DNA of 64,000 nucleotides, taken from assembly GCA_023665275.1 (NCBI GenBank), contig JAMPEF010000001.1, positions 533,224-597,223 on the forward strand. The letters are read 5' to 3'. The notes beneath the pieces were generated by a model. The model did not search any database. It was not told the DNA's origin and saw nothing but the letters and a program-made list of their open reading frames with translations. Shown here piece by piece: positions 28,498 through 51,300 of this stretch (position 1 is the stretch's first letter; every line of letters starts with the position of its first letter). The translations under genes and the position numbers were made by a program. This DNA comes from Alistipes senegalensis (GTDB taxonomy: Bacteria; Bacillota; Clostridia; Oscillospirales; Ruminococcaceae).

Positions 28498-28521
28498 GGC
28501 ACAGGAAAAAAATCCCGTGCC
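28498..28521 (-). terminator. Probable terminator of the Ter cluster
   Basis: GGCACAGG (28498-28505) pairs with CCCGTGCC (28514-28521), eight pairs with one G-U, nine bases after the stop codon of the last terD gene. The T run downstream is weak. Confidence 0.55.
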
Positions 28522-28529
28522 ATATTTTA

Positions 28530-29117
28530 TTATGTAAATCTTTTTGCAAGGTCATTAAGACTTGCATCAGGTGTACCCTGTCCCATTGCATTGAACTTCC
28601 ATTCATTGTTGTGTTTATAGATTTCACCGAAAATCATAGCCATACTGCCGAAATAGTCATCAGTGAGATTATAACGACATATTTCGTTATTATTCCGGTT
28701 GTCAACTATCCTGATAAAAGCATTATTTATCATTCCGAAATGCTGTTTACGCTGTACAGCCTGATAAATATTCACAACAAAAACTATCTTATCAACGTCA
28801 TACGGAACTCTGGAAAGGTCAACGGTAATCTGTTCATCGTCGCCATCGCCTGCTCCGGTGAGATTATCTCCGTTATGGATTACACTTCCGGAACTATGCT
28901 TTAAGTGCGCAAAATATATAATATCTTCCTTTCCGGCAAGTACGCCGTTTCTGAGAAGAATTGCAGAGGCATCACAATCTATGGCTCTTTCTTTTCTTGA
29001 AAAAAGACCCCTTTTCTTCTGTGCCTCGTCCCAGCCAAGACCGACGGTCACTACTGAAAGTCCTGCACTTTCCTTTGACAGACTTATTTTCTGTCCTTTC
29101 ATTAAACTTATAGCCAT
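28530..29117 (-). CDS. TerD family protein (first of three paralogues)
   Basis: A 195-residue cytosolic protein with the TerD beta-sandwich: LSKESAGLSVVTVGLGWDE, then DCDASAILLRNG and the calcium-binding stretch [20 protein letters not shown]. TerD proteins bind calcium and act in tellurite, phage and stress responses. This copy differs from its two neighbours by an insert with basic residues (AQKKRGLFSRKERAIDCD), which may change its ligand or partner. The ATG at 29117 has GGAG nine bases upstream; an earlier in-frame ATG is possible. It is the last gene of the cluster. Confidence 0.92.
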   Translation of the reverse strand: MAISLMKGQKISLSKESAGLSVVTVGLGWDEAQKKRGLFSRKERAIDCDASAILLRNGVLAGKEDIIYFAHLKHSSGSVIHNGDNLTGAGDGDDEQITVDLSRVPYDVDKIVFVVNIYQAVQRKQHFGMINNAFIRIVDNRNNNEICRYNLTDDYFGSMAMIFGEIYKHNNEWKFNAMGQGTPDASLNDLAKRFT

Positions 29118-29135
29118 TTGCAGAAACTCCATATC

Positions 29136-29717
29136 TTATTCAACTTCCACGCCGAAAGCTCCGCACAATGCGGCAAGTCCACCCTGATAGCCCGAACCTA
29201 TAGCATTGAATTTCCATTCTTCTCCGTGTTTGTAAAGTTCGCCGAAAACAGCCGCTGTTTCTATTGAGAAGTCTTCACCTAAATCATAGCGGAGAATTTC
29301 TTCACCGGTTTCTTCATTGTAAATTCTTATAAATGAATTGCTCACCTGACCGAAATTCTGTCTTCTTGCCTCTGCTTCATGGATAGTAACGGTAATATCA
29401 ATCTTTGTTATTTCAGCCGGAACTGCTGAAAGGTCAATTTTAATCTGTTCGTCGTCGCCGTCTCCTGCTCCGGTGAGATTGTCACCACAATGTGTAACAG
29501 CACCTGACGGGTGATTCAGATTGCCGTAAAATACAAAATCTTCTGGCTTTGAAACTTTTCCGGAATCCGTGAGAAGAAATGCAGAAGAATCAAGGTCAAA
29601 TGCTGAACCTGTATCAAAAGCATTCACGTCCCAGCCAAGACCTACAACTACTTTCTTAAGACCAGGGTTGCTTTTTGTGAGACTTATTTTCTGTCCCTTG
29701 CTTAAACTAACTGGCAT
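29136..29717 (-). CDS. TerD family protein (second paralogue)
   Basis: A 193-residue TerD protein: [40 protein letters not shown], and the calcium site [20 protein letters not shown]. It is closer to the 29751 gene than to the 28530 gene; both share [12 protein letters not shown] and end in a GG-A-ALCG motif. TerD paralogues in tandem are normal in Ter operons, and the B. subtilis YceC-D-E set is the nearest known layout. It lies between its two paralogues with short gaps of 18 and 33 bases. Confidence 0.93.
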
Positions 29718-29750
29718 ATTAAAAAACTCCTTTTTAAATTATTTTTTTAA

Positions 29751-30332
29751 TTATTCCGCATCTATTCCATAGTGTCCGCAAAGTGCGGCAAGTCCGCCCT
29801 GAAAACCACTTCCGATAGCGTTGAATTTCCATTCACCGTTATGTTTGTAGAGTTCGCCGACTACAACAGCGGTTTCTATTGAGAAGTCCTCGCCTAAATC
29901 ATAGCGGATAAGTTCTTCATTTGTATCTATATTCACGATTCTGATAAATGCGTTCGATACCTGACCGAAATTCTGTCTTCTGTTGTCTGCATCGTAAATC
30001 GTTACAGTGAAAGCAACTTTTTCGATATTTGCCGGAATTTTGGAAAGGTCAATTTTAATCTGTTCATCATCGCCCTCACCCTCACCGGTAAGGTTATCAC
30101 CCATGTGTTCAACAGCTCCGGAAGAGTGTTTCAGATTTCCGTAAAAAATAAAGTCTGTATCTTTAGGACATTTTCCGTTAGCACCTGCCATGAAAGCGGC
30201 GGCATCAAGGTCGAATGCTGCACCGGAGTCAAAAACATTGACGTCCCAGCCTAAACCTACCATTATGTTTTTAAGTCCGGGATTTGTTTTTGTAAGGTCA
30301 ATTTTCTGACCTTTTGAAAGATTTATCGGCAT
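29751..30332 (-). CDS. TerD family protein (third paralogue)
   Basis: A 193-residue TerD protein beginning [20 protein letters not shown], with [20 protein letters not shown] and the calcium site [20 protein letters not shown]. The ATG at 30332 is preferred to an in-frame upstream start because GGAGG lies eight bases before it and it aligns with the second paralogue. It follows the TelA-like gene by 15 bases. Calcium-binding Asp and Glu residues are all present, so it is probably functional. Confidence 0.93.
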
Positions 30333-30347
30333 AATAAAAACCTCCAA

Positions 30348-31514
30348 TTAATTACCGTTTTTAGGCATACTGTATCTCTTGTTGTACTCCTGTTTGATAA
30401 CTTCCAGTCTTGCCTTATCATCGTTGCGCTGTCTGCGTGCATCTTCCTGAATCTGACGTGTTTCATCAATACCGGTCATAATTGTTGACCACGTTTTTTC
30501 AAGAGTTTCAATCTTTATCGAACTGCCTGAAGCCATTCTTGCTATCATCTTGGACTGCTCAACAGTATTCTGTGCATTTTTTATAAGCATTTCATTTGTC
30601 TTTTCGTCAAGAGCTGACATAGCTTCTGCCTGAATTTTCTGACGTTTAAGCATCATAGCCTGTGCAAGTGCCTGCTTGAATACAGGAAGTGTGACGATAA
30701 ATGCAGAATTGATTTTTCTGACAAGGTTCATATTACTGAATGCCATCATTTTTATCATAGGTACGGACTGCATAGCGATACTTTCAGCGGTTCTTAAATC
30801 CTGTGTTCTCTGTTCAAGCATCATAAGTGCCTGTTCAAGATTCTGAATTTCAAACTGTATAGAGTTATCTCCGGTAGTTGCCATATCCTGCTTGCGCTGT
30901 TCAAGGTAAGCCTCAATTTCCTTACAGCCCTGCTCACCGGCAAGAATGTACTTTACAAGTTTATGATAGTATTCAACATTTGCATTGAACATCTGGTCAA
31001 GTTTTCTGTTAGCCTGTTTGATTTCGTCTTCATACTTACGGAGCTGGACATATATTTTATCGACTTCATCACCCATAGTATGATATTTTTTAAGAATCTT
31101 GTCAAGCTGTTTCTTGGCATTGCCGAATAACTTTTTGAAAAATCCGGGGTCTTCCTTGATTTCCTCAATATCGAACTGCTCCATTATCTTGGCAAGTGCC
31201 GTAAGCATCTGACCGGAATCATTTATCTGACTCATACTCATACTGTTGAGTACAACATCAGAAGCCTTTGAGATTTCGTCGGCGGCGTCTGCACCAAAAG
31301 ATACGATTGTTGTTAAATCGTCAATGACAATCTGGCTTGCAAGTTTGTCGACTTCTTCAGAACCGACAAGCTGATTATTCATCTGATTTCTGTCAGCAAC
31401 AATGTCATATTGCTGTACAACTTCAATTTCCGGCTGTACCGGTGCAGCCGGTGCGGCTGTGATTACAGCGTTTTCATTGGTCTGTGGTTTTGCTCTTGAA
31501 AGGTCTATACCCAT
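30348..31514 (-). CDS. TelA-like toxic anion resistance protein
   Basis: A 388-residue soluble, largely helical protein of the TelA (KlaA/YceH) family. It starts MGIDLSRAKPQTNEN, has a Pro/Ala-rich stretch, then long coiled coils (IYVQLRKYEDEIKQANRKLD and LEQALMMLEQRTQDLRTAES) and the conserved LVRKINSAFIVTLPVFKQAL. TelA proteins occur with TerD genes and give resistance to tellurite and other stresses; the mechanism is not known. An earlier GTG lies inside the AAGAGGTG ribosome site, so the ATG at 31514 is used. Confidence 0.9.
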   Translation of the reverse strand: MGIDLSRAKPQTNENAVITAAPAAPVQPEIEVVQQYDIVADRNQMNNQLVGSEEVDKLASQIVIDDLTTIVSFGADAADEISKASDVVLNSMSMSQINDSGQMLTALAKIMEQFDIEEIKEDPGFFKKLFGNAKKQLDKILKKYHTMGDEVDKIYVQLRKYEDEIKQANRKLDQMFNANVEYYHKLVKYILAGEQGCKEIEAYLEQRKQDMATTGDNSIQFEIQNLEQALMMLEQRTQDLRTAESIAMQSVPMIKMMAFSNMNLVRKINSAFIVTLPVFKQALAQAMMLKRQKIQAEAMSALDEKTNEMLIKNAQNTVEQSKMIARMASGSSIKIETLEKTWSTIMTGIDETRQIQEDARRQRNDDKARLEVIKQEYNKRYSMPKNGN

Positions 31515-31529
31515 TTCAAACACCTCTTC

Positions 31530-33890
31530 TTAATATTTTTTTCTGCCCCATGGCAAGCGGATACGTGAAAAATCAGGTATTTTCATATCATACATATATT
31601 CACCTATCTGATGTTCACTTATTATTGACCGGCTGTAATAATTTTCAACGTTATTATATCCGGTTGGTATCATAAATAAAACGTCGAAACCCACCATACT
31701 AAGAAATTCAAGAGTAATAGCCTGCTCCTGAGTTATGGCATTGTCTCCAGTGTTTATATAAATGACTTTCGGATTCTTCTTTGTAAAATCAAAATTCTGT
31801 AGTTTTCTTATAATTTCCTTGTCAAGATTGAGTATTGTGGAAATTATTTTATACTCCGTACCGTTTTCAAAAGTACCGTTTATAATGCGACTTTCAATAA
31901 GCATCTGCAATTTATCAAAAATGTGATTTTGCATTTCCTCACGAAGAACTTTATATTTATAGTCCGGACTGTTCTTTATTGCTGTACGCTGTAAAGTATT
32001 ATTTTTCCAGAATGTAACAGCACCTTGTGTGGTATTTTCCGGCTGAGTATTATTATACGGTGAAGTACGTATATTTGCGGAGTAGGGATTTGCACTTCCG
32101 AGTGAATACGGATTTATACTGCCGAGTGTACGTCCCATAGCATTCCCACGTGAATAAGGGTTAGCGCTGGTCTGTCGGGTGAAAGACGTTGCAAGACCAT
32201 TTATTATAATAGTATCGTCCGTATTTAGTTTTTTTACAAACTGCCAGTAGGCTTTATGATTACCGTCCTTGACGCCGGAAACTTTCGCAAAGAAAACCGG
32301 TATAATTACTTCTCCGTTATCCGTTGAGAAGTTCGGACGGTATTTAAGTTCCTCGTCCCATAACTGTTCTATTTCCTCAAACATTGTATCAAGAACTATT
32401 GCCGACGCCTTGGCATACTGATGATTTCTGTAAATTCCCGTATCCTGATACATAAGCGTATCAAGTTCACGCTCTGCATGATATGCAACAGTACCGGCAC
32501 GCATTGCAACACCCTCCGGAAAAACATCAACATCTAAAGAACTTTCATAATTAAATTCTGAAAATCTTTCCTTGTAAGTCCTGTATGTATTATTCATAGC
32601 GGGATTGAGTATGATAACATCAACCGGCATCAACGAAAGTATTTCAAGAAAAGCCGTACGGACTTCGTCAATTTTGCAGTTGAAAAGCACAAAACATGGT
32701 ATACTTTCCTTTTTCCAGCCTGAAAAAAGTTTTTTCTGCCACCTTTTCAGCCAGCATATGACGTATACACACATATTAATGAATTTATTTATGGAACACT
32801 CACCTGCATACTTCGGCATTACCTGTGCAAACTGGTATCTCAAAGTCTGCTGTAATGCAGAATCAGAGATATTTATATTACGTGCAAGTCCCGTAACCGC
32901 CATAGCTGGTGTATTATAATTGCTACGGATTATATCTGAAATTTCGTCGTATGTCGGTTCGGCTATTTCCTTGTTGACAATGACTAAATTTCTTTTCTGA
33001 TTATTCATATTGCTTCTGAATGAAATAAGTTCATTGATATAATCAGAACGACTATAAACGCCGTTTATCTGATAGAATATATTGCAGATTTCATTTTCCT
33101 GCCCTCTCTGTTCCGGAGATGTGAGGGCATCACTGAGACCGTCGCCCCTTGCCCATGAATTTGTAACTACATTATATGCTGGTTTATCACCACATACACT
33201 TACGGCGTTAAGTTTTTCAGATACTGCCTGCTGTATTTTTTTTATTGAGAAGTCCGCCGGAAAAGGTTTTCCGGTTTCCGTCCATACGTCAGAAACTCTT
33301 GAATCGGGGTCAAACCCGCTATACTGTGTGTTACCGTTTGTCTGTACAAGAACAATATCACAGCCAGCCTCCGAAAGCATGGAAAGTAACATCAGTTCAT
33401 AGTGACTGCCTATGCCGTTACAAAGAATCTTAGGTATTTCATTTTCACCAAGACGGCTTGTAAGGCTTTCAAACCTGTAGTAAAGCCAGCACATGAATTT
33501 TATATATGCATTTTTTAAAATATTCTGATTTTTTCCCTGAGCCGCAAGTCCTGAAATGACATCATACATTGACCTGCTTATTTCATTGCGCTGAATTGCG
33601 TTCATTCGTGGCAACCACTTCTGAAGTGCCGACATTATGAATTGTCTGTCAAGTCTGAAATTATCACCCATCATTTCATAGTAATATGATATATGATTCT
33701 GGTCAATGACAGGTATGCGACCATCAATAATAACGCCGTTTTTCCTTGCCAGTTCGTAATATCTGCACAGAAAATCCCATACTTCATCACTGTATGAATT
33801 TATTCTGTAAAAAAATACATTGTTTCCGTTTCTTTGATTCAGATTCAAAAAATAGTTATCAAGTGAACTTATTCTGATATGCTGAAACAT
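31530..33890 (-). CDS. YceG-like protein of the Ter cluster
   Basis: A 786-residue soluble protein matching the YceG family (PF14266) linked to TerD and TelA genes; B. subtilis YceG has about 540 residues, so this one is long. Three related segments suggest internal repetition: IPKILCNGIGSHYE...SEAGCDIVLVQ (about 153), IPCFVLFNCKIDEVR...MPVDVIILNP (about 397) and PKVIYINTGDN...VGFDVLFMIP (about 710). Residues about 565-610 carry a low-complexity insert with three NPYS repeats. The function is unproven; the family has been proposed to work in a Ter-linked biosynthetic module. It starts six bases after the rhomboid gene. Confidence 0.8.
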   Translation of the reverse strand: MFQHIRISSLDNYFLNLNQRNGNNVFFYRINSYSDEVWDFLCRYYELARKNGVIIDGRIPVIDQNHISYYYEMMGDNFRLDRQFIMSALQKWLPRMNAIQRNEISRSMYDVISGLAAQGKNQNILKNAYIKFMCWLYYRFESLTSRLGENEIPKILCNGIGSHYELMLLSMLSEAGCDIVLVQTNGNTQYSGFDPDSRVSDVWTETGKPFPADFSIKKIQQAVSEKLNAVSVCGDKPAYNVVTNSWARGDGLSDALTSPEQRGQENEICNIFYQINGVYSRSDYINELISFRSNMNNQKRNLVIVNKEIAEPTYDEISDIIRSNYNTPAMAVTGLARNINISDSALQQTLRYQFAQVMPKYAGECSINKFINMCVYVICWLKRWQKKLFSGWKKESIPCFVLFNCKIDEVRTAFLEILSLMPVDVIILNPAMNNTYRTYKERFSEFNYESSLDVDVFPEGVAMRAGTVAYHAERELDTLMYQDTGIYRNHQYAKASAIVLDTMFEEIEQLWDEELKYRPNFSTDNGEVIIPVFFAKVSGVKDGNHKAYWQFVKKLNTDDTIIINGLATSFTRQTSANPYSRGNAMGRTLGSINPYSLGSANPYSANIRTSPYNNTQPENTTQGAVTFWKNNTLQRTAIKNSPDYKYKVLREEMQNHIFDKLQMLIESRIINGTFENGTEYKIISTILNLDKEIIRKLQNFDFTKKNPKVIYINTGDNAITQEQAITLEFLSMVGFDVLFMIPTGYNNVENYYSRSIISEHQIGEYMYDMKIPDFSRIRLPWGRKKY

Positions 33891-33896
33891 TCCGTG

Positions 33897-34478
33897 TCAC
33901 CTCTTGAATTTATTTTCGACAAACCCGAACGCTGAGCCGATAAGTCCGCCGATTATATGTGTAAGTTCTGAAATATTGTTATTCGTGAAAATGCCATCAT
34001 ATATCTGTTGACCGATATATATTACCGCAACAAGTATAAATGTAAGCGGTATTTTTCCATTCTGGAATCCCGTAAACGATGATAACAATATAAACGCAAA
34101 TACAACACCGCTTGCTCCTAAAAGCTGGACGTGTGGAAAAAATATGAAATTTATAATTCCGGTAACAAGCGCCGTAACTGCAATAATCATAATTATATCG
34201 GTTCTGCCGTATTTTTCTTCAAGCAGAGGTCCTAAAAGCAGAATATATGTCATGTTGCCCATGAAATGCTCCCATGAAGCATGACCGAAAACGTGTCCGA
34301 AAAACCGGATATACGTCAGCGGACTGAGCATTGAAGAATGATACACGCTGAAAACAAGATTATTACTTGCTCCGTGCGTTATATTGCTGAGTATAAGCGC
34401 TATAAGGCATATTGCAGTAAAACCAAGTATCACCGGTGAATTGAATGATATTTTTAAACCTGATTTGTTCTTACCCAT
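33897..34478 (-). CDS. Rhomboid family intramembrane serine protease
   Basis: A 193-residue membrane protein with about six hydrophobic segments. The catalytic Ser is Ser123 in GASGVVFAF and the catalytic His is His174 in ELTHIIGGLIGSAFG. HASWEHFMGN (His71, Asn75) is the conserved oxyanion-side motif. All key residues are present, so it should be active. Rhomboids cut other membrane proteins within the bilayer. It is the first gene of the rhomboid-YceG-TelA-TerD unit and is an unusual partner for Ter genes. The start has GGAGAAAATAA upstream. Confidence 0.9.
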   Translation of the reverse strand: MGKNKSGLKISFNSPVILGFTAICLIALILSNITHGASNNLVFSVYHSSMLSPLTYIRFFGHVFGHASWEHFMGNMTYILLLGPLLEEKYGRTDIIMIIAVTALVTGIINFIFFPHVQLLGASGVVFAFILLSSFTGFQNGKIPLTFILVAVIYIGQQIYDGIFTNNNISELTHIIGGLIGSAFGFVENKFKR

Positions 34479-34503
34479 TTATTTTCTCCGCAGTCAGAAA
34501 TGT

Positions 34504-34521
34504 AATTTAAACATTTAAATT
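34504..34521. promoter_or_regulatory. Perfect palindrome at the Ter-unit promoter
   Basis: AATTTAAA (34504-34511), CA, TTTAAATT (34514-34521) is a perfect inverted repeat that overlaps the -10 box and the expected transcription start. It has the position of a repressor operator. The cognate regulator is not in the cluster. Confidence 0.55.
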
Positions 34522-34548
34522 ATAACATAATTATTAAGTATCTGTCAA
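34519..34548 (-). promoter_or_regulatory. Internal promoter for rhomboid-YceG-TelA-TerD
   Basis: On the minus strand there is TTGACA (34543-34548), an 18-base spacer and TATAAT (34519-34524) preceded by TGT, in the 92-base gap after the DUF2357 gene. Confidence 0.88.
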
Positions 34549-34570
34549 GTATAATTATGAAATATTTTCT

Positions 34571-36343
34571 TTATGTGAAAAGATTTGAAAATGCGTCTTT
34601 AATTACTTTATTGTCGGTGGTATCAGCTCCGGAAAGATTAATGATATACGCAAACGGTCTGACGGTTTTGTTAAGTTTTTCAGATACATCATGAAGATTG
34701 CACATCTGATTTTTATGAACGTCCTTTCCACAAAGTACATACAAACCCTCTAAGGTGTCGTTTTCCTCAAGTGCGCTTACAGAAAACAGGTATTTATAGA
34801 CAAGTTCCATAAGTCTTTCATTTTCTGCCACCTGCATGGAACTGAATTTAGCGTCCATGATGACGTACTTTGAAGAACCATCACGGGTTATTTTAAGAAG
34901 ATAGTCCGGAGTATATATATTGCCTTTGTTTCCGCCTGCCATACTTGCATATCTGTTGCGGTAAAGCATAATTTCATTAGGTCGTGGCGGTGCTATCTCA
35001 CCATATATGACCGGCTGAAAATAAAGTGTTATGTCACTGCCGTCATTGCCCTTGAAAAAGAAAGTATTATTACAATAGGTATTCTGATATAAAGAACCTG
35101 TTTTCTTATATTCAAATCTTTCTGTTCTGCTTTCAATCATGGTACATTTCATTTCCTCACGGATTGTGACAAGCATCTTTATAAGACAGTAATATTCATA
35201 AATTATGCTTGTTGTCTTTCGTGTTGAGATAAAACTTTGCAGAAGCTGACTTTTTGCGGTACTATGTCCCTCGTCGTGACACCATTCATATATTTTCTGA
35301 TATACTGTTCTGTAGGGCATTACAAGCCGGAAAGTATCGGTATATTCCGGCAGAAAATCTATATACATTTCCCTTACACCGAAAATTTTCTGGTATCTGA
35401 AAAGAAGTATATACAGACGTTCCATACATTCTTCAATTGACATTGTGCGGAAACGATATATATATTTTGTGGATTCAATATAGTTGCCTTTTCTGTATGC
35501 GTTGTCTTCATTGATGTAGTCTTTAAGTTCTTCCAGCCTTGAAATAAGCGTTGAAAGAAATCCTGTTATCACTCTGTTTTCATATACATCGCTTGTATAG
35601 ACAGTGCCGGAAATAAGTGTATTTTCCGGCTGAAAATGTCTGTTGCCATATGATATGCCTGTATTGAAATCAACTTCATAGAGTTCTTCAGGGTGGGAGG
35701 CTATATATTGTATGGTCTTAGGAGTTACAGAATCAAGTTTATAGAATTTTCCGACAACTTCTCCGGAAATCGCCCTTGTTTTCGGAGAGTTCTCGAAATA
35801 TCCGGAAAAATGTTCATATATTTCTATGACTTCTTCAATAAATCTTAATTTTGACTCAATTTTTATATCGTCATTGCTGTCGGTGCTGTCAAAACTGACA
35901 TAATCTTCATAAAGATAGTCATTTCCCTTGTCATAGATGTAATCAATCATCTTTATTATGTTCTTATATTGTGTATTATCTGTAACCATTATGGAAATAC
36001 TGTCAGAAACATAATAATCACCGGAAATTTTTATTTTTATCTGTACAATGCCGAAACACTGCATGAAAATTTTTTTATAATCCTTTGAATTTTTTTCAGC
36101 ATTTTTGTCAAATACAAACTGATAGTCATTTTTTCCTGTAGCACAACGCTTTATAGGTACAGCCTCGTCATTTATATAGAAATCGGAAACATAATCTATA
36201 CTGCCCCTGAGTGAAAATGAAGTATAATCATAGTCATTGAACACATATATTTTTTTTTCCGGAGCTGATGTATTTTCTTCTTCTTCCTTATGCAGTGGTA
36301 TTTTTACGGATTCATTCCCTTGTGCTTTCAATAATAATTCCAT
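34571..36343 (-). CDS. DUF2357 / PD-(D/E)XK nuclease-like partner of the McrB-type ATPase
   Basis: A 590-residue soluble protein. The N-terminal half is unassigned, and the middle is helical (for example SIEECMERLYILLFRYQKIFG). The C-terminal part carries a nuclease core: YTPDYLLKI (about residue 479) followed by YVIMDAKFSSMQ (about 495), which gives the PD...(D/E)XK pattern as PD...DAK. DUF2357 proteins are known as partners of McrB-like ATPases in restriction-type systems. It starts 14 bases after the AAA+ gene, so both are one unit. The exact family call rests on these motifs and context. Confidence 0.78.
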   Translation of the reverse strand: MELLLKAQGNESVKIPLHKEEEENTSAPEKKIYVFNDYDYTSFSLRGSIDYVSDFYINDEAVPIKRCATGKNDYQFVFDKNAEKNSKDYKKIFMQCFGIVQIKIKISGDYYVSDSISIMVTDNTQYKNIIKMIDYIYDKGNDYLYEDYVSFDSTDSNDDIKIESKLRFIEEVIEIYEHFSGYFENSPKTRAISGEVVGKFYKLDSVTPKTIQYIASHPEELYEVDFNTGISYGNRHFQPENTLISGTVYTSDVYENRVITGFLSTLISRLEELKDYINEDNAYRKGNYIESTKYIYRFRTMSIEECMERLYILLFRYQKIFGVREMYIDFLPEYTDTFRLVMPYRTVYQKIYEWCHDEGHSTAKSQLLQSFISTRKTTSIIYEYYCLIKMLVTIREEMKCTMIESRTERFEYKKTGSLYQNTYCNNTFFFKGNDGSDITLYFQPVIYGEIAPPRPNEIMLYRNRYASMAGGNKGNIYTPDYLLKITRDGSSKYVIMDAKFSSMQVAENERLMELVYKYLFSVSALEENDTLEGLYVLCGKDVHKNQMCNLHDVSEKLNKTVRPFAYIINLSGADTTDNKVIKDAFSNLFT

Positions 36344-36357
36344 AGTTATACACCCGT

Positions 36358-39300
36358 TCAGGAAAGATATTGACAGTATCCCATATTTCTTTCTGCATTT
36401 TTCATCATTTCTTCAATGGCATTTTTTGTCATATCAAGATGGTGATTATTGCATATACGGATAAATTCATTGAAAAACTTTTCATATAACTTAAGGCGAC
36501 AATTTATTTTAGGAAGCAATTTCTGCATAACTGCATAGTCAGCGGCGATATATTCGGAGGTTACACCACCAATACCATGCATTACCTCACGGGCGGAGGC
36601 TATATAATTATACATACTGAGTTTAATTCTCGGGCTTACCGTCATGCCGTAACTATGGAAAAGTTTTGAAATATTTTCAAGAACCGGCAAAGTATACATT
36701 GTCTCTTCTGTACGGAAAGTAAACGCTTTTTTAAGGTCTTCCCATAAGATATTTTTTTCCGGAACTGGTATTCTTGCATTTATATCTGAATCCGGCAGCT
36801 TTATAATCCATGCACGGTCAAGAAGTCTCGGTGAAAGTGTTTCGGTTGTCTGGTCATTGTTGATAGTTGCAACAAATCGCAATGTATCGGGGATATATAT
36901 ATCATGTTCAAGACCAATATTTATATATATGTCGCTTTCCTCTGACCTGTCGGCAAGCTGCATGAAATCCGCCCAGTAGTATTCCATGGGACTTAAGTTA
37001 GCCTCGTCAAGAAGCACCATATACGGAAATTTTGATTTTTCCCTTTCTTCATTGAGTATCATAAGAGAATCATATAAACGCCGGTTTGTCTTGTCGTATT
37101 TTTTTGTAAGCGGATTATAATAACCGATAAGGTCTTTTTTGGAAGACCAGCCCTTTTCAACTGAAATCGGTACAAAACGGTCATAGCTGATTTCGCCGCT
37201 GCCAAAATTGGTAAGTCCTAAACTGTTGCCTATGATATTACATACTGAAGTTTTTCCCGTTCCGGGCAGACCCGCAAAAACTGTAAGAAATCCCTGTGTG
37301 ATGCAGATATACATATTAAGTATATCATTAGTACTGTAATTTCTGTATCTCTTTACATAATTAACAAGATATTCACACAGTTCTTTACTTTCCATTCTGT
37401 TGCAGTCTTTTGACTTCTGTATAATAATATCAGCTGCTTTACTGTAGATTTCACTTTCCTGTTTTTTATGCCATTCGCTTGCCGCCTCAAGCATTGCGTT
37501 TGAAACATATGGGTCAAAAGCTATATTTACTTCATTAGCCTGCTCCGCAATTGTAGTTTTTATCTTGCCTTTCATTTCGGAATTTTTATGCTGTAATCTT
37601 GCGTTTTCCTCAAGCAGATACGCTTTTATACGTTCCTGATATTCAATATCCTTAAGAATATCCCCGTAAGAAGACAAAACATTATATTCTTCCTTAAGTT
37701 TTTCTATTTTCTGTTCAAGTACTTCAACTTCACCATTTTTTTCACTTATCTTCATGGCTTTTGCAGCTTCAGCGGCAAGCTGTGCCTCTGATTTTGCGGT
37801 CTGAACGGCTTTCGACTTCTTTTCAAGTTCTTTCTGCAAATCCTTGTATTCCTGACTGGCTGTTACCATTCCGGAAAGAGCCTCCTGTACCTGACTATCC
37901 GTGTTATAAGCATCAACAAATGTCATTGCTATCTGTCTTTGTTCGTCGGTGTACTTCTGAATGTTTTTAAAAAGACCATGTATTCTTGCAAGTCTTGAAA
38001 ATTTTACTTCTTCGGGGAGATTTCCTGAAAGAAACGGTGACCTGCCAAGCATCTGTATAAATTCTTCAGGCTTTTTCTTTATTATATTAAAGAAATCTTT
38101 TGAACTTTCTGTCAGCATACTTTTTAAAAGAATTTCGTCAGAAATAATATCTTTCTTATATGTTGAGCCGTCACTAATCATTGCAAACGGTATACATACA
38201 GGGTCACAGTCAAATTCCTGACGTTCACTTATACCGAAAGTAAGTTTTTCTTCCCTGTGACAATTCAGTAAATATCTTTCGTCAGCTATTTTCGGCTGAA
38301 TATAGGTTTTTTCATTTTTCTTGTAAACCTTATAAGGTCCTGAAATATCATCACTGTCGGCATTTGCTGTACCGTCATTTCTGCGCCTTAAAAGTACCAG
38401 TTCATCTTTGGCAAAATCGCTGTTTATTTCAATAATGCCACTTAAAAGCTGATTATCGGTGATATATTCTTCCGGTTCTACAATACGAAAAATTCTCAGT
38501 TCGCTTATTTTCCGGAAAAATTTAGTTGAATTGCGGTTCTTGTCAAATTCTTTCTGTAAATCTATTTTAAGATTAACATCACTATGCTTCAAGCCGGTAA
38601 GATAATTTATGTTTTCTTCAAGAATATCATCAGTAAAAGAAATCGCAAATGTATATTGAAGGTCAAGACCCTCAACTATTTTCTGACTTTGTGAATTGAG
38701 TGAACGGAAGTAAGAAAGATTTATAGTGCCATTAGGTGGGAATTTTTCAGATACCTGACGTAATTCAATAAGTTTTTTTGAAGAACCGTTATCTTCTATT
38801 CTGTACTGTGGTGCAAAATTATAATAAGTTTCACGTTTTTCAATGTGACCTATGTAATAATTTGTTATTTTGTCTTTTGCTTTTTTCTTTGCGGAAACAG
38901 GTTCGGACTTTTCCGGAACTTTTTCCGCTGGTTTTTCAGTTGCTTTTTCAACAGAAGTTTCAGGTATCTGTAAAATAGTTTCTTCCGGAACTACATTTAC
39001 TTTTTCCGGAATTTCATTTATTTCTGGTACTTTTATAACTTTTTGTGGTGTGGCTGTTTCTTCTTCTGTAGTAACTTTTGCTTCTTCAGGGACTTCCGGC
39101 ATTTCAAAAGTAAGCTGTTCTTCTTCAGGAACATCAGTAGAAGATGTATTTTCATCAGTACTGTCATGCGCATCTTCAATTGTTTTTATAAACTGTTCAG
39201 ATTTTATGAAATCTGCCATAATTTTCTGCCCGTATGAACCATCATAGCATTTTTTTAGTACAAGCACAGTATTCATAATGCAGTTTTCATCATTATATGA

Positions 39301-39591
39301 ATTAATAATATCTTCATACTCAACATCTGTTGAAAAAAACATACTACTGCTAAGACACTGATAAATTTCATCTGCAAATGTACTTGCAGATGTACTGGTA
39401 AGAGCAGCTACAATCTTTTCATTAAGTTTCTTTTTACTTTGTGCATCACGTCTGTCTTTACGGCTGAGTTTTTCAATAGCCTTTTCAATAATCTCTTCGG
39501 GAAGTTTAATATAAAACTGTACAAGAGAAGAGAATAATTTCTTATCTGACATTGATGTACCCTTATTCATGGAAATTGCTTTTGGCGACAT
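36358..39591 (-). CDS. McrB-type AAA+ ATPase, large
   Basis: A 1077-residue soluble protein. Residues 1-110 are helical and basic, about 125-225 is a Pro/Glu-rich linker with repeated VPE motifs, about 230-560 is an unassigned mixed domain, and about 590-700 is a coiled coil. The AAA+ domain follows: Walker A GLPGTGKTS near 772, Walker B VLLDEANLSPMEYYW near 860, sensor ATINNDQT, and the arginine-finger region LSPRLLDRAW. DEANLSP is typical of the McrB/MoxR-like group, which forms hexamers that drive a nuclease. The start at 39591 has AAGGA upstream; internal Met codons at 39552 and 39570 are alternatives. Confidence 0.85.
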   Translation of the reverse strand: MSPKAISMNKGTSMSDKKLFSSLVQFYIKLPEEIIEKAIEKLSRKDRRDAQSKKKLNEKIVAALTSTSASTFADEIYQCLSSSMFFSTDVEYEDIINSYNDENCIMNTVLVLKKCYDGSYGQKIMADFIKSEQFIKTIEDAHDSTDENTSSTDVPEEEQLTFEMPEVPEEAKVTTEEETATPQKVIKVPEINEIPEKVNVVPEETILQIPETSVEKATEKPAEKVPEKSEPVSAKKKAKDKITNYYIGHIEKRETYYNFAPQYRIEDNGSSKKLIELRQVSEKFPPNGTINLSYFRSLNSQSQKIVEGLDLQYTFAISFTDDILEENINYLTGLKHSDVNLKIDLQKEFDKNRNSTKFFRKISELRIFRIVEPEEYITDNQLLSGIIEINSDFAKDELVLLRRRNDGTANADSDDISGPYKVYKKNEKTYIQPKIADERYLLNCHREEKLTFGISERQEFDCDPVCIPFAMISDGSTYKKDIISDEILLKSMLTESSKDFFNIIKKKPEEFIQMLGRSPFLSGNLPEEVKFSRLARIHGLFKNIQKYTDEQRQIAMTFVDAYNTDSQVQEALSGMVTASQEYKDLQKELEKKSKAVQTAKSEAQLAAEAAKAMKISEKNGEVEVLEQKIEKLKEEYNVLSSYGDILKDIEYQERIKAYLLEENARLQHKNSEMKGKIKTTIAEQANEVNIAFDPYVSNAMLEAASEWHKKQESEIYSKAADIIIQKSKDCNRMESKELCEYLVNYVKRYRNYSTNDILNMYICITQGFLTVFAGLPGTGKTSVCNIIGNSLGLTNFGSGEISYDRFVPISVEKGWSSKKDLIGYYNPLTKKYDKTNRRLYDSLMILNEEREKSKFPYMVLLDEANLSPMEYYWADFMQLADRSEESDIYINIGLEHDIYIPDTLRFVATINNDQTTETLSPRLLDRAWIIKLPDSDINARIPVPEKNILWEDLKKAFTFRTEETMYTLPVLENISKLFHSYGMTVSPRIKLSMYNYIASAREVMHGIGGVTSEYIAADYAVMQKLLPKINCRLKLYEKFFNEFIRICNNHHLDMTKNAIEEMMKNAERNMGYCQYLS

Positions 39592-39648
39592 AAATAATCA
39601 CGTCCTTAATAAAATTTTCAGGTGAATAAAACAATGCACCTTAATTTT

Positions 39649-39677
39649 ATTATATCACAACAGAAGCAATTAGTCAA
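39649..39677 (-). promoter_or_regulatory. Promoter of the AAA+ / DUF2357 unit
   Basis: On the minus strand there is TTGACT (39672-39677), a 17-base spacer and TATAAT (39649-39654) preceded by TGA, followed by a leader of about 50 bases. Confidence 0.85.
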
Positions 39678-39747
39678 GAACCACAAAAATATTTCAAGAT
39701 TTTTCTTTAAGATTATTTAAAATGTTATTTCTTGTGTAAAATGCAGA

Positions 39748-39772
39748 AAGACCGCTATTTTCAGGCGGTCTT
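39748..39772. terminator. Stem-loop after htrA
   Basis: AAGACCGC (39748-39755) pairs with GCGGTCTT (39765-39772). It lies 41 bases after the htrA stop, with a moderate T-rich tail on both strands, and probably insulates htrA from the AAA+ promoter. Confidence 0.75.
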
Positions 39773-39813
39773 AACTGTTTTTATATAATTAAGGAAAAAG
39801 AGGAAAAATTATT

Positions 39814-41055
39814 TTACTTTCTGATTTCGTCAAGGGTGATTTCAGCGGTCTTTTCAACGCCGTTTCTTACATATGTCACTTTTATAGTATCACCGGCAGA
39901 ATGCATATTTTTCTGTGCGTTGAGTTCCTCAGCAGTTGAGACTTCCACGCCATCAACGGCTGTTATTATGTCGCCAGACTGCAAACCGGCTTTTTCGGAA
40001 GCACTATTTTCTGATACGTCCTTTATATATACACCAACCGGCATATTGTACATACGTGAAACATTTTCGGTCACGTCATGACAACTTATTCCAAGCTGTG
40101 GCTTGCCGGTGACATAGCCATATGACATAAGGTCATCAATAATCTTTGCAGTTTCATTTGACGGAATTGCAAAACCTATGCCCTCTATGCTTGCTTCACC
40201 GTAACTTGCCGACATTTTGGAGGAATTTATACCGATTACCTGACCATATTTATTAATAAGAGGTCCACCGGAATTTCCAGAATTTATAGCCGTATCTGTC
40301 TGTATAAGATTCATAGCTTTATCATTTATTGTTATGTTTCTGTTAAGTCCGGAAACTATTCCGCTTGTAACAGTATTCATTAAATCAAAACCGAGGGGAT
40401 TTCCGATAGCTATGACGGATTCACCAAGCATAAGGCTGTCACTGTCACCAAATTCAGCGGCGGTCAGTCCGGAAGCGTCTATTTTAAGTACAGCAAGGTC
40501 ACAGTCCGTATCATATCCGATAACTTCCGCATCATAACTGCTGTCATCATTCATATGAACCGTGATATTTTCCGAAAGTCCTGCACCATATTCGCTGTCA
40601 TAGATAACATGGGCATTTGTTACTATATAGCCGTCTTCCGTGATTACAACGCCTGTACCTGTACCGGTTGCGGTCGATGTTGAAGGCATTCCGAAACCGT
40701 AATAATAGCCATTATTATTTGATGTTACTGTAAACTGTGATTCAATACCTACAACTGATGGCAAAACTTTCTGTACAACTTCTTCAGTTGTAAGTACAGT
40801 GCCGGAATTGCTGTCAGTATTTATAAGGCTTACTTTTTCGGCTGTAAGAGATGATTTCTTTTCGGAATTTGTCTCGGCTGTTTCTGTAACGGCTGAAACA
40901 GGATTTTCAGTGATTTCACGATAAACAGCTATTGAACCACCGGAAACCATTACCATAGCCATAAGAAAAGCTGTAACTTTTCCTAAAGTATTTCTTTTGG
41001 GTTTCTGTGAGTTGTTTTCATTATCGTTGAGGTTTATATTATTATATTCATTCAT
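39814..41055 (-). CDS. HtrA/DegP-like membrane-anchored serine protease
   Basis: A 413-residue protein. It has a polar Asn-rich N-terminus, one membrane segment (about residues 26-44), a linker, a trypsin-like domain and one PDZ domain. The catalytic His is in IVTNAHVI, Asp in DCDLAVLKID and Ser in INSGNSGGPLI. The PDZ part starts near KPQLGISCHD and includes SASEKAGLQSGDIITAVDG. HtrA proteins degrade or refold misfolded exported proteins. Here it may help control the large exported proteins of the pilus locus next door, but HtrA is common and this is inference. Confidence 0.94.
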   Translation of the reverse strand: MNEYNNINLNDNENNSQKPKRNTLGKVTAFLMAMVMVSGGSIAVYREITENPVSAVTETAETNSEKKSSLTAEKVSLINTDSNSGTVLTTEEVVQKVLPSVVGIESQFTVTSNNNGYYYGFGMPSTSTATGTGTGVVITEDGYIVTNAHVIYDSEYGAGLSENITVHMNDDSSYDAEVIGYDTDCDLAVLKIDASGLTAAEFGDSDSLMLGESVIAIGNPLGFDLMNTVTSGIVSGLNRNITINDKAMNLIQTDTAINSGNSGGPLINKYGQVIGINSSKMSASYGEASIEGIGFAIPSNETAKIIDDLMSYGYVTGKPQLGISCHDVTENVSRMYNMPVGVYIKDVSENSASEKAGLQSGDIITAVDGVEVSTAEELNAQKNMHSAGDTIKVTYVRNGVEKTAEITLDEIRK

Positions 41056-45317: not shown

Positions 45318-48300
45318 TTATATCGATTTTTTGCGTCGTCTTGCAAGAATAAACATCGATATGAACATGAATGTCATGCCTATAATATAATACCGTCTTG
45401 TACCTACACCACCCGTGGAGGGCATTGTTATACTGTCTGATTCACGCTTATGGTTATAAACGGTAACTGTTCCAATTTCTGTCTTTGATGCGTCTATAAA
45501 ATACTCATCGCCTGAAGCGTTGAAAGAATAGCTTGCAGTGTAACCACTGACCTCATCTTCGACTACCCAGTAATAATATTCTTTACCACTTTCATCATAT
45601 TTTGGAAGATTAAGAATTTCTGTCCAGTATCCATCAGTAATGGTACTACTGTTATAACTCATTGTGAGACTTGCGACACCATCATTATTAAACTCTGATA
45701 ACTTACCGGTGATTATAGTCGGCTCAGCAGAGAGGTATGTGTAATCCGGCATTTCAAGTGATGCGAAACTGAGTGAATAATTCTGAGTGGATACACCACC
45801 ATAAGTTTGAACAGTTCCATCAGCATAGGTAATAGTAATACTATTAATTGTTGCTACTGCATTATCTGTATTTAAGGATAATGTTAATGTGTCTACAAAC
45901 CAACTATCCCATTCACTAGCTGAAACACTTATATTACTTACAACTTGTAAATAATGACCAAACACATAACTGTTATTTAATGTTCCACCAATTATTAATT
46001 GTACATAATCACTTGGAACTTCACAATTAACACTAATATTTTGAATTTTCTTAGAACTGTCTAATGTTATTGCTCTAAAATCACTTTTTCCATTTAAAAT
46101 AAAACTATTATTATTTCCACTACCAGTTGTAGTAGTAGTAGATGTTGTAGTAGTTGTGGTAGTAGTAGTTGAAGTTGTCGTTGCAGAAGTTGTTGTTGTT
46201 TCTGTTGTATCTCCAGAAGATGTAGATGCTACAATTGCCTGATCAGTAACAGTAATTTTAATTGTTGCAGTTTCACTTCCGCACTTTGCGGTGATAGTTG
46301 CTTCACCTACACCACGTGCATATGCCTGAACATTTGTTGAATTGTCATTAGCCCTTCTCATTGCATACATTGCAATAGATGCAGCATCATTACTTAAAAT
46401 TTCAACTACATTTGAATCCGAAGAGTACCATTTAACAGCACTTCTGTTTGCAGTCAATGTCCACTCTGAACCAAGATTCACAACCTCACCATTTTGAGAA
46501 GTGATTGACATTATCAGTGGAAGACTATAATCTATATCACTTTCATTAGTAGAACGATGAACCTTTAAATTGATGCTATCATTAATATGTGCCTCGTCGT
46601 CAGACCAAATTTTATTAACTGTCACTTTTATTGATTTTGTATTGGTCAGACTAATAACACCATTTTCATTAGCGATTCCGTCATTGTCATACTTAACAAC
46701 ATATTCATCCGGAACAACTTCAACAATCTTGTATTGATATGGAGCATCACTACTATCATACTTTTCAAGATTACTGTAAGTGTAAGTCCATGTATTATTG
46801 TCACTATAAGTTGGTGTGGGCTGTGTTACATCAACTGTATTCCAATCTGTACCATTTGTTGAACGCTTTAACTCAAGTTGTATTGAATCAGGTCTATTTC
46901 CGTCTTTATTACTAGCGTCAACCCATTTTTTGTTAACCGTGATGCTTATTTTTTCTGTCGTTTTTGTGTTTGTAATTGTAGCTGTCTTTCCACTGTCAAC
47001 AATAAGACCGTTATGTTCATATGTTACATCCCAACCATCAATATTTGTTTCCTTAACATAGTAAACATAATTTTGACCGTTGTCGTTCTGCTTAGGTAAA
47101 TCAGTTATATTAACAGACCAATTACCGCTTTCGTCAGGAAGTTTTATAGTTCTATAAGGAGTACCTAAATCAGAAGGAAGAGTATCAATATCTTGTGGTG
47201 TTTCTACTGTAATAGTATCACCTAAATAATGCTTATTAATAGCATCATAAAATGCATTTGCAATAGCTGTGTAGCCCGCGTCATTCGGATGACAACCGTC
47301 AGCTGTTTTATCTCCTACTGCTGTGTAAATATCTACAAAGTATATATCCTTATTCTTATATTCAGTTTCTACAAGGTTTTTAACCATTGTATTATACTCA
47401 GAAACTAATTCATCCCAATTCTTTTGTAATTCAGCTGCTCCAGGAGCGCCATCCCACTCTATCTTATGATACTTTCCTGACCTATTAGGCCATGTTAAAG
47501 CAGTCATTCGAGGAACATTACCAACAAACAATACTACATCATTTCCAGATTTACTATATATGGAATCAATCAAACTTTTCAGTTTAGCTTCCATTTCTTC
47601 CATAGTATCATCAGTATTAAGCAGATTATTAGTTCCAGCTATTAGTGTGACAATATCATAAGTTGAATCTAATCCTTGATATTTCAAAGATTCTTCAATT
47701 TCCTCAATTTTATGACCTGAAGTTCCAGCATTTGTTATTGTCACATTTTTTAATATACCTTTTAATTGATTAGGATAATTCATACTATTGGTTGAGCCAA
47801 CACCTTCTGTAATAGAATCACCCTCAGCGTATATCTTTAAATTATCAGGTATTTTCTTATCACTATCAACAGCAGATTGAGTTGACTCAAGTTTCTGATA
47901 AATCTCAACATTAATTGAATCAGGTAAATTCTCTGTAATTTCATTGCCGGAAGAATTAACCCATTTCTTTTCTATTCTGAAACTTCCAGGAACACTGTTG
48001 GTGATAGTTATTACAGGATTTGAAAGACTGCCATTATGACTATAGCTTACTTCATAACCCTCAACTGCTGTTGTTTCAAGAACATAATAATAATTGTTTT
48101 TATTATCGTCTTTATACGGAAGGTCTTCCCATGTATGTTCCCAATTATTACTACTGTTTAATGTAGCAGTTCCATTTTTTTCAACCTTAGTTATACCATC
48201 AGGCAAACTATCAGGATTAAGTTCTTTGAGTTCAGAAGGAGTTAAACTTTTATTTGAACGAATAAGAACAACATCTATTGAATTACTTGTATGATTTTCA

Positions 48301-51300
48301 TTTCCGTCGCTCCATACTTTGTTAACATTAACATTAACATTTGCAGGAGTCTTATCCCTATTTGTAAGAGTAATTTCACCTGAGCCGTCAACCACATTAT
48401 AAGTATCACTTATAACATAATTATACATTATATTACGAACTTCTTCATTTATGTCATTAACTTCTTCAATTTCAAACCGTTCATACAAACTAAGTTTCTT
48501 TTCGTCTTCACTCAAATCATTCTTGAGGATATTTGCATCAATAACTGTCTGCCAATTTGGTGCAGATATTGTACCCTCATGAACGAGTTCAACCTTTTTT
48601 CCATCTTCCTTGATACCAAAGAGGTTAAACTTAATTTCGTCAAGCGGAATTTTACTGTTATCAGTAATTTCTTCACCGTTTGAATCAGTCCATACTTTTT
48701 TAACAACAAGATTAGAAGCATTTTTAATATGAACTGTGCTTACCATTTTATTGTCTTGCTTAATTTTACCAGTATTTAAACCATTACCTGTATAAAGCGG
48801 TTCAAAATCGCCTTCCTTACCATCTTTATCCAGATATTTTCCGGATTTTTTATCCAATGTATAAGTTATAGTTTCATTTCCCGATTTTAAGGTATATGAT
48901 TTTTCTCTTACATAATAGTAAACTGGTTTTCTGTTATAACCATTAGGCAGATTATCCCATGTTACACTTGGGAATGCGTCACCTGAACTGTTTGCTGAAA
49001 TAGTCTTAGTACTGTTTTCAATGCCCATCTCAGAAAGTTCATGCAGGTTATTTTCAAGAGGAATACTGCTTGATTTCAGATAAGACCATACAAGTTCTAC
49101 TTCTATGGAAACAGGTTCATAACCATGCGGCATACCTAACCATTCTTTTTCAGCTTTAATACTGAACTTGTTACTATTTTTTACTTTAATATCCTCTGTA
49201 CCACTGACTGAAATAATATCTTTCTGGCTGACAGCATTATCAGCGTCAACGCCTGTATTGATACTATTTAAAATCTCACTGGTTACATCGCCATTATACA
49301 TAAAATAATATACATATGGCTGTTTGCCTTTTACAGATGCATTTGAATTATATCCTAAAGATACATATCCATCAGGTTCATGAACTTCAACCAGCTTATA
49401 AAGTGTATCATTAGTCAAAACAACCTTAAAACCGTCTTCTTTCGGAACTTTAATTAGTTTTGCATCTGTTGGAACTGTTCCATTATCAGTTTCATTTGCT
49501 TCAAATGTCAAAGTATTTACTTTTTCTTTATTTTCAGTCGCATTTGTTACATAAACCCATTTTTTAGTTGTTGTGTCATACTTTGCAAGATAGAAATCAG
49601 CACTAAGAGTAATTGCGTCACTACCCACGTCAACCTTTTTAATAGTTGGAGATTTGTCTACTTCTATTGTAGCCGAAGCTTCTTCAACATAAAAATTGTT
49701 TTTAGTATGCTCTGCACTTGCAGTTCCCTTACTTGTTTGGAAACTTGCTGCATTTTTAATTGTGATATTATGCTCAGCTTGTAAATCAGACAACTTCTTA
49801 CCAATATCTGCAGCGGTTGCACCGGGTGTGTTTTCATTTACTATAAACTCATAAGTGTACCTAATCTGAATAGGCATAGAATCCGGTACTGATAATTGCA
49901 GTTTAGTTTCCTTTGATACGTCCACTGTACATGCCGTTGCAGTTACTTGTGGATTTGTTATATTTTCTACTTGAATAAATAAGTTTGAATTATTAAGTTT
50001 TTTCTTAGTCTGAAGTACAACTGTTGCATCGCCATTTTCATCATATGTTGAAGAAGCACTTATAGTAACATCATCCCAACATTGTAAATTTAATGGTTGA
50101 CCTGGAATACCACCAGATATATTATAGGTAACTTCCAAACTTTCTGGATAATCAAACCTAGATAATTCAAATCCATAAGCATTACCCAAACTACCAACTG
50201 TAACTTCACTAATTGGATAATTTACTTTTGTTTCAACCTTATCTGAATCAAACAAATAACTATAATCATTGGAATCAAGTTTTCTTATCCAATTGCCTGC
50301 ATCATCTACCTGATAAACATTAATACCAGTTAATCTTACGTCGAAAAGATTGCTTCCTTTCGCTGTGCCTGAACCCGTTATATTCTTATTGCCGTAGGAA
50401 TCCTTTGTATAAGTTTTCCATTCATCTTCAACAGTTTCAAATATATCGGAGATGTCAATCATACCACCATTAGTAAGTTTTTTACCTTCAGGATTCACAT
50501 CAATTACATATTGTGCCTGTGCTGTTACATCATACTCATTTCTGCTTATACCTTTTTTAATAAGTGATTTGTCATCCGGTACATCAGAATTTGAAGATTT
50601 AGTGATTTCAAGTGTTGCCGGTGAAAATTCATCTTCATCATTCAACTTTATTTCATTTGTAACTGTATATTTACCATCAGCTTCTACTGCTTTGTCAATA
50701 GTTTCTTTCGGAACAGCTGTACAGTATGTTATCCATTGAACGTTTTTCTTTAAATAGTCACTTTGAACGCTTGAAGTATCTAAACTAAATTTAAATTGAT
50801 TTTCTCCATCAATATCGCTACCATAATTTCCGTCATGTAAAAATGTATTACCAACTGCCGACTTCCAATCATTCCAATGACCTGAAGCAACACCATAAGA
50901 ACCGCTTTCATTACCAATAACGAAATCAAATCTTGCGTTATTAGAACCATAATCTGAAACTAAACCACTATTAGCAAAATCAACATATGGATTTATACCA
51001 TCTGAAATTCTATCTTCAAATTTAACAATATTGATGCCATTTGTTCCAAAATCAAGTTTCCATTTGAAAATATAATATTCTGTTCCATTAACAGTTCTTG
51101 TCGGCCAATTTTTAAGGTCATCTGCTGTAATAGAAGTGATATCTTTATGTTCGCTATCTGTTGCCGGAGCCCAAACATCGCCTGATGAAGTTGTCAAACC
51201 AGGATATATAGCTTTTTTAACACTACTGCCAGTATCACTCTTCTTATTAGTGATTTTTACAGTTTTGTTTGAACTTATTTCACCTGATGGTGCATATGAA

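Follow-up and report, generated by a model that had tools for sequence, protein, structure and literature searches.

Whether Ter stress genes and a restriction-type gene pair that share a strand and a neighbourhood also share a function is the question raised by eight genes at positions 28530..39591 of a 64,000-nucleotide stretch of contig JAMPEF010000001.1 (assembly GCA_023665275.1, positions 533,224 to 597,223; hereafter the window). An earlier note on this DNA had proposed that they form one defence or envelope-stress system, in which the Ter proteins sense and a McrB-like AAA+ protein acts together with a DUF2357 partner, and had allowed that the two halves could also be independent. The reading that we prefer, and to which we would give about an even chance, is that a McrBC-type pair of the NxD branch, similar to the PDC-M26 system, was captured once beside an existing Ter operon, and that the two are stacked, separately promoted and probably complementary modules. 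Our comparisons drew on 125 Ruminococcus genomes and on 391 genomes of the class, several metagenome-assembled genomes among them being incomplete.

Gene content of the cluster

A check of the window found eight intact open reading frames (ORFs), all on the minus strand, with the coordinates and lengths that the earlier note had assigned to them, and the domain identities proposed there hold by Pfam, the largest protein being identified instead through PADLOC, its motifs and a McrB profile. This protein of 1077 amino acids (36358..39591) had no family over cut-off in the Pfam scan; it matches PADLOC PDC-M26A (1.3e-25) and aligns to Escherichia coli McrB in profile comparison (E 5.5e-7), which bears out its description as a McrB-like AAA+ protein. 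A variable N-terminal region is followed by a C-terminal nucleoside triphosphatase (NTPase) domain, in which Walker A, Walker B and NND motifs are present; the protein is a McrB relative of the kind with a short NxD motif. In a pattern scan of 16 Ter-linked loci, where each gene was counted only if present in the examined DNA, Walker A and NND were kept in 13/13 McrB-like proteins and LDEANLSP in 12/13, and N911 and D913 are invariant in all 16 rows of the alignment. The protein is more variable outside the NTPase domain: mean identity to the window over 10 Ter-linked rows is 32-42% in residues 121-240 and 82% in residues 781-900. A probable coiled coil (about residues 560-625) precedes the NTPase domain; a home-made heptad score reaches its maximum, 0.825, close to residue 583, the highest value over 20 shuffles being 0.725, and the McrB-like profile has weak matches to solved coiled coils.

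The adjoining gene (34571..36343) encodes a McrC-like putative nuclease of 590 amino acids, with Pfam matches to DUF2357 (33.3 bits, cut-off 23.3) and PDDEXK_7 (23.2 bits, cut-off 22.1). Its PD...DAK core, which the earlier note had pointed out, is intact and was kept in 15/15 Ter-linked DUF2357 proteins, with P479, D480, D497 and K499 invariant in 17/17 rows of the alignment, and the Pfam matches support a predicted nuclease fold. We take the residues of this core, of the Walker motifs and of the rhomboid motifs to be catalytic.

The Ter operon begins with a rhomboid intramembrane protease of 193 amino acids (33897..34478; Pfam Rhomboid, 75.5 bits), which is intact, as had been claimed, its GxSG and TH..G motifs being kept in 16/16 Ter-linked loci. 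There follow a YceG_bac protein of 786 amino acids (31530..33890; 359.6 bits), a TelA protein of 391 amino acids (30348..31523; 346.3 bits) and three TerD proteins (29751..30347, 29136..29717 and 28530..29132; 288.5, 279.9 and 245.9 bits), the first of which has a match (8.5e-75) in the solved structure 2kxt, a tellurite resistance protein. The TerD proteins had been described as bearing calcium sites; the acidic motifs are indeed present, and are kept in 14/14, 13/13 and 13/13 proteins for the three genes, and their role in calcium binding is one that we presume from the family.

Distribution and origin of the association

The arrangement is not limited to this genome, which named relatives place in Ruminococcus, and the objection that the earlier note had named as fatal to a single system, a neighbourhood peculiar to one genome, does not apply. 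Matches to YceG were found in 33 and to DUF2357 in 19 of the 125 Ruminococcus genomes. Sixteen of the 33 YceG matches are at least 60% identical to the type in the window, and DUF2357 adjoins YceG in 15 of these 16 genomes, the contig of the sixteenth (G526) starting about 70 bases before the rhomboid gene. The remaining four DUF2357 matches comprise three genomes (3/125; G016, G467 and G534) in which a McrB-DUF2357 pair has no Ter gene nearby, and a weak partial match in G010. A scan of genome contigs with the DUF2357 alignment, which used two short peptide patterns and can miss relatives, returned 19 loci. The 12 at 51% identity or more share the same eight-gene order as far as the contigs run, genes being called in all comparisons by ORF length and similarity; the exceptions are small inserted ORFs in L039 and L046. 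The contig of L046 stops short of McrB, and L043 has a truncated McrB and breaks off inside TelA. At the seven loci at 36% identity or less, a McrB-like gene adjoins DUF2357 and no match to YceG, TelA or TerD was seen in the examined flanks (up to 10 kb per side). All five McrB-like proteins scanned from stand-alone relatives match PDC-M26A, and one of two DUF2357 proteins scanned matches PDC-M26B (L089, 1.6e-4); an integrase gene neighbours the pair at one such locus, and HsdM_N and dynamin-like genes do so at another.

In the class sample, YceG was matched in 18 genomes and DUF2357 in 6, weak matches included, three of which (G075, G269 and G441) lay outside the neighbourhood comparison. Both were present in G000 and G094, on different contigs in the latter, and the eight-gene arrangement was not seen in the sampled genomes outside Ruminococcus. 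No phage record matches DUF2357. Three plasmid records do, at 22-23% identity, and the surroundings of the two that were inspected show no Ter-annotated gene, their annotation being incomplete.

The Ter half also occurs by itself. The order rhomboid-YceG-TelA-TerD was found without McrBC at seven further Ruminococcus loci (L031, L076, L077, L081, L084, L087 and L088), of which L031 ends near the rhomboid gene and L087 and L088 are near copies. Because the rhomboid gene precedes YceG-TelA-TerD in loci that lack McrBC, it belongs with the Ter half.

The phylogenies, which are quick searches without bootstrap and with long branches flagged, place the 16 YceG proteins of the McrBC-Ter group in one clade (SH-like approximate likelihood ratio test, SH-aLRT, 99), whose sister is locus L076 of genome G462, where neither McrB nor DUF2357 occurs in the examined 1.7 kb upstream of a rhomboid-YceG-TelA-TerD cluster; G462, 88% complete, has no DUF2357 match in the genome. 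The Ter-linked DUF2357 proteins likewise form one clade, of 14 (SH-aLRT 100), divided into two halves just as the YceG tree is. The simplest reading of these trees is that the pair was captured once, upstream of a rhomboid-YceG-TelA-TerD operon already in place, and since the carriers form one clade sharing much of the surrounding synteny, the association counts as one event and not as repeated assembly.

Retention within that clade is supported, independently of the locus itself, by the ranking of genomes by RpoB. This YceG type is present in every one of the 10 genomes whose full-length RpoB is 93-98% identical to that of the window, and DUF2357 is seen in 9 of them, the tenth being cut by a contig end. 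G472 (RpoB 92%) also belongs to the McrBC-Ter group; G467 and G461, nearly level with it, fall outside. Partial RpoB matches could not be ranked, as with G480 (93% over 1035 residues, genome 71% complete), for which there is neither a YceG nor a DUF2357 match.

Both genes of the pair are under purifying selection. When the window was compared with L042, L038 and L026, the ratio of nonsynonymous to synonymous divergence (dN/dS) was 0.08-0.19 for McrB and 0.05-0.15 for DUF2357, next to 0.05-0.07 for CysK and 0.06-0.13 for HtrA. Synonymous divergence from L026 ranged between genes of the stretch from 0.42 (HtrA) to 0.99 (rhomboid), an inequality that may stem from recombination.

Several observations were made along the way on Ter clusters and TelA. 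HtrA-like protease genes adjoin Ter clusters without McrBC at six loci (L033, L066, L075, L081, L082 and L083), on the same strand and directly before YceG or rhomboid in L075, L081 and L083, and the Ter cluster of L075 also holds a cation P-type ATPase gene. An ORF of about 170 codons, lipoprotein-like by eye, lies 3' of TelA in L039 (near 16024) and L091 (near 4226), in L039 between TelA and TerD 1. Among 72,556 plasmid records, 620 contain a TelA relative at less than 60% identity, and 582 of these are typed as conjugative.

Promoter-like sites and the boundary between the halves

Each half has a promoter-like site of its own. The internal promoter reported by the earlier note stands up to comparison: the site ahead of the rhomboid gene (TTGACA-18-TATAAT, 34519..34548, minus strand) is a full 12/12 match to the consensus, and a matching element is present in 15/15 gaps before rhomboid, the window included. 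The site ahead of the McrB-DUF2357 unit (TTGACT-17-TATAAT, 39649..39677, minus strand) was found in 10/10 gaps compared, and about 55 bases upstream of and including its -35 region are strongly conserved (within window 39590-39820). With a conserved promoter-like site for each half, and with each half found alone elsewhere, the independence that had been allowed for gains support. No terminator-like site was found by the terminator scan between the McrB-DUF2357 and Ter halves on their strand, and therefore read-through from one into the other is possible.

Two further ideas about the McrB promoter region were not retained. A regulon shared through this promoter was rejected, its exact extended form occurring once in the genome. 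By eye, an inverted repeat with differing arms lies between the -10 box and the McrB gene; no consensus structure was predicted, however, and a structured 5' leader was likewise set aside. At the boundary itself, a 105-codon ORF, cupin-like by eye, lies between DUF2357 and rhomboid in one species (L046, 1830-2147).

Relation to known systems

TerD systems with a McrBC-like component have already been published (Anantharaman, Iyer and Aravind 2012, as cited in PMC3710099), and, as in our cluster, TerD genes occur there together with a McrBC-like restriction pair. The citing passage adds HEPN (DUF4145) genes in a few cases; no HEPN, cold-shock or YTH domain was recognised by Pfam among the eight proteins of the cluster. 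The exact eight-gene set is not described among the literature matches listed, and seen in part, for combinations of TerD with McrB and of TelA, rhomboid, YceG and McrC, and the cluster is a lineage-specific variant of the known TerD-McrBC association.

According to the excerpted text of PMC11090510, the NxD sensor motif characterises one distinct branch within the McrB family, to which the CoCoNuT systems belong. The window resembles this branch in its NxD motif, in the probable coiled coil before the NTPase domain and in the DUF2357-PD-(D/E)xK partner. CoCoNuT types II and III-A likewise have a Ter link, in the form of TerY-P; the partner genes of our cluster are TelA, TerD and YceG instead, and Pfam recognised no TerY VWA protein, PP2C-like phosphatase or kinase among the eight proteins and the two flanking ones.

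Likeness to McrBC type IV restriction lies in the Walker A, Walker B and Nx(x)D motifs of the 1077-residue AAA+ protein and in the predicted fusion of McrC-like DUF2357 to PD-(D/E)xK in its partner. As to PDC-M26, the AAA+ protein matches the A subunit and the partner of a stand-alone relative matches the B subunit, but the DUF2357 protein of the window has no B-subunit match in PADLOC at E 0.1. The Ter half recalls the Firmicute YceG-TelA-TerD operon, presumably (some gene assignments being ones that we take as given) yceC-H of Bacillus subtilis, in uniting YceG, TelA and several TerD genes; by comparison, the window adds the rhomboid gene in front and the McrBC pair upstream, and StiP and PRTase_2 were not found in the genome. 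A published table assigns the B. subtilis operon to sigma factors W, B and M (PMC3498285, in excerpt).

Proposed mechanism and its weaknesses

Under the capture reading, the two-gene pair would have been acquired by the ancestor from which one Ruminococcus clade descends, at a site immediately upstream of the rhomboid-YceG-TelA-TerD operon, and would since have been kept as part of the chromosomal backbone. The pair is probably defensive. We infer from the families involved that the McrB-like protein could form an NTP-driven ring recognising or moving along invading nucleic acid, and that this ring could activate the DUF2357-PD-(D/E)xK partner, which would then cut the nucleic acid. Separately, the Ter operon would guard the envelope, with the TerD proteins presumably acting as calcium-binding sensors, TelA and YceG positioned at the face of the membrane, and the rhomboid cleaving a membrane substrate. 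Our results support the gene content, the motifs, one capture, retention, purifying selection and two conserved promoter-like sites, whereas nuclease activity, its target, the envelope role and any cooperation between the halves are proposals.

We acknowledge that a number of results weigh against this account. As to defence, profile comparison links DUF2357 only weakly with E. coli McrC (E 0.013, probability 3%), no reader domain exceeds the Pfam cut-off in the McrB-like N-terminus, and neither the McrB-like nor the DUF2357 profile has a credible match among solved structures. Of the neighbours scanned beside other stand-alone relatives, those in L090 are not defence genes, and two in L089 have no Pfam match. 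Stable retention in a syntenic chromosomal stretch is in itself unusual for a defence pair, and Ter function in Ruminococcus is presumed from other bacteria. As to the capture, L076, on which it is based, is a long branch from a genome that is 88% complete and in 440 contigs. Adjacency as an argument for joint function is a separate matter: in a synteny control of 54 window ORFs against six longer regions and one shorter, the Trp genes, HtrA, IspD/F and a cohesin-like protein keep their order like the cluster does; CysK is absent from 2/7 regions, and synteny beyond IspF breaks up. Adjacency within the clade is thus not clearly above the local synteny background and therefore is no proof of joint function by itself, and after this control we rejected it as such.

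Alternative explanations

The same synteny speaks for the closest competitor of the capture reading, one somewhat less probable in our view and still a serious contender, namely that the halves are functionally independent neighbours, joined once and adjacent only because this chromosome stretch is stable. Many flanking genes are equally syntenic, each half has its promoter-like site and is found alone in other Ruminococcus genomes, and the association is one evolutionary event. Against independence, the pair is present in 15/15 assessable genomes with this YceG type (a count that misses genomes that lost both halves, with an RpoB ranking spanning 10 close relatives) although Ter-less relatives are sporadic, and read-through between the halves is possible for want of a terminator-like site.

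At the other end, the McrBC pair could have replaced the signal-synthesis arm of the Ter system (StiP, PRTase, C-C lyase and HAD), with TerD and TelA gating the nuclease in one integrated system. Such an arm is resembled, in the published view of Ter (PMC7824862, in excerpt), by the extra gene set of the L077 cluster, which carries StiP-PELOTA, C-C lyase, PRTase-TRSP and HAD genes. StiP was found in 23/125 Ruminococcus genomes, that is in 0/16 of the McrBC-Ter group, in 14/17 other YceG carriers and in 9 genomes without YceG; PRTase_2, counted by hand, exceeded its cut-off in 22/125, again in 0/16 and 14/17, and neither was matched in G000. The sister genome G462 has both and no DUF2357 match, and the whole block is retained. 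This absence was unexpected; it amounts to a single phylogenetic contrast, the group being one clade. Moreover, the next outgroup, G466, and also G465 and G528, lack StiP though they lack McrBC, StiP lies on a contig other than that of YceG in 7 of the 14 YceG carriers that have it (within about 16 kb of YceG in the other 7), the 9 genomes without YceG have it nonetheless, and the promoter-like sites are independent. We regard replacement as unlikely, and more doubtful still is a direct trigger, in which events at the membrane involving TerD, TelA and rhomboid would release or activate the McrBC-type NTPase, so that an envelope alarm sets off restriction. That McrBC and Ter make up a single system is possible; of the earlier proposal of Ter sensors serving an AAA+ pair, the conserved association stood, and separate promoters, the occurrence of each half alone and the one-clade origin count against the rest.

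Improbable, and the weakest of these explanations, is a domesticated pair that now serves the host, for instance in maintaining the envelope or in dividing the cell. Clade-wide retention, purifying selection and the precedent of Staphylococcus aureus PcdA, a McrB relative co-opted for division, would favour it, but the Walker A motif of PcdA is described as degraded and the protein as lacking a McrC partner (PMC10602043, in excerpt), whereas our cluster has intact Walker motifs and an intact partner nuclease.

Whichever explanation is adopted, a restriction-type pair behaves like a backbone gene in this clade, and several Ruminococcus lineages are seen to have a rhomboid protease gene in their Ter operon. 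Ter proteins are still poorly understood, and a clade with a nuclease pair beside Ter and no detected signal-synthesis genes offers a natural setting for probing the partners of TerD and TelA.

Flanking features

A terminator-like hairpin lies 3' of the third TerD gene (28498..28521, minus strand), and another lies between HtrA and McrB (39748..39772); the latter was scored in the window on the plus strand only, and relatives show a T-rich tail on the gene strand. HtrA is matched at 1e-90 in at least 118 of the 125 genomes. At 20 HtrA loci taken from genomes that lack the Ter-linked pair, we saw no IspD/F, cohesin-like gene, CysK or TrpE, and because all of these flanking genes are missing, none shows the site as it was before capture. 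Farther out in the window, an ORF of 3257 codons (45318-55091) lies beside pilin-like and sortase-like genes, so named by eye, and has a match in 1/7 regions.

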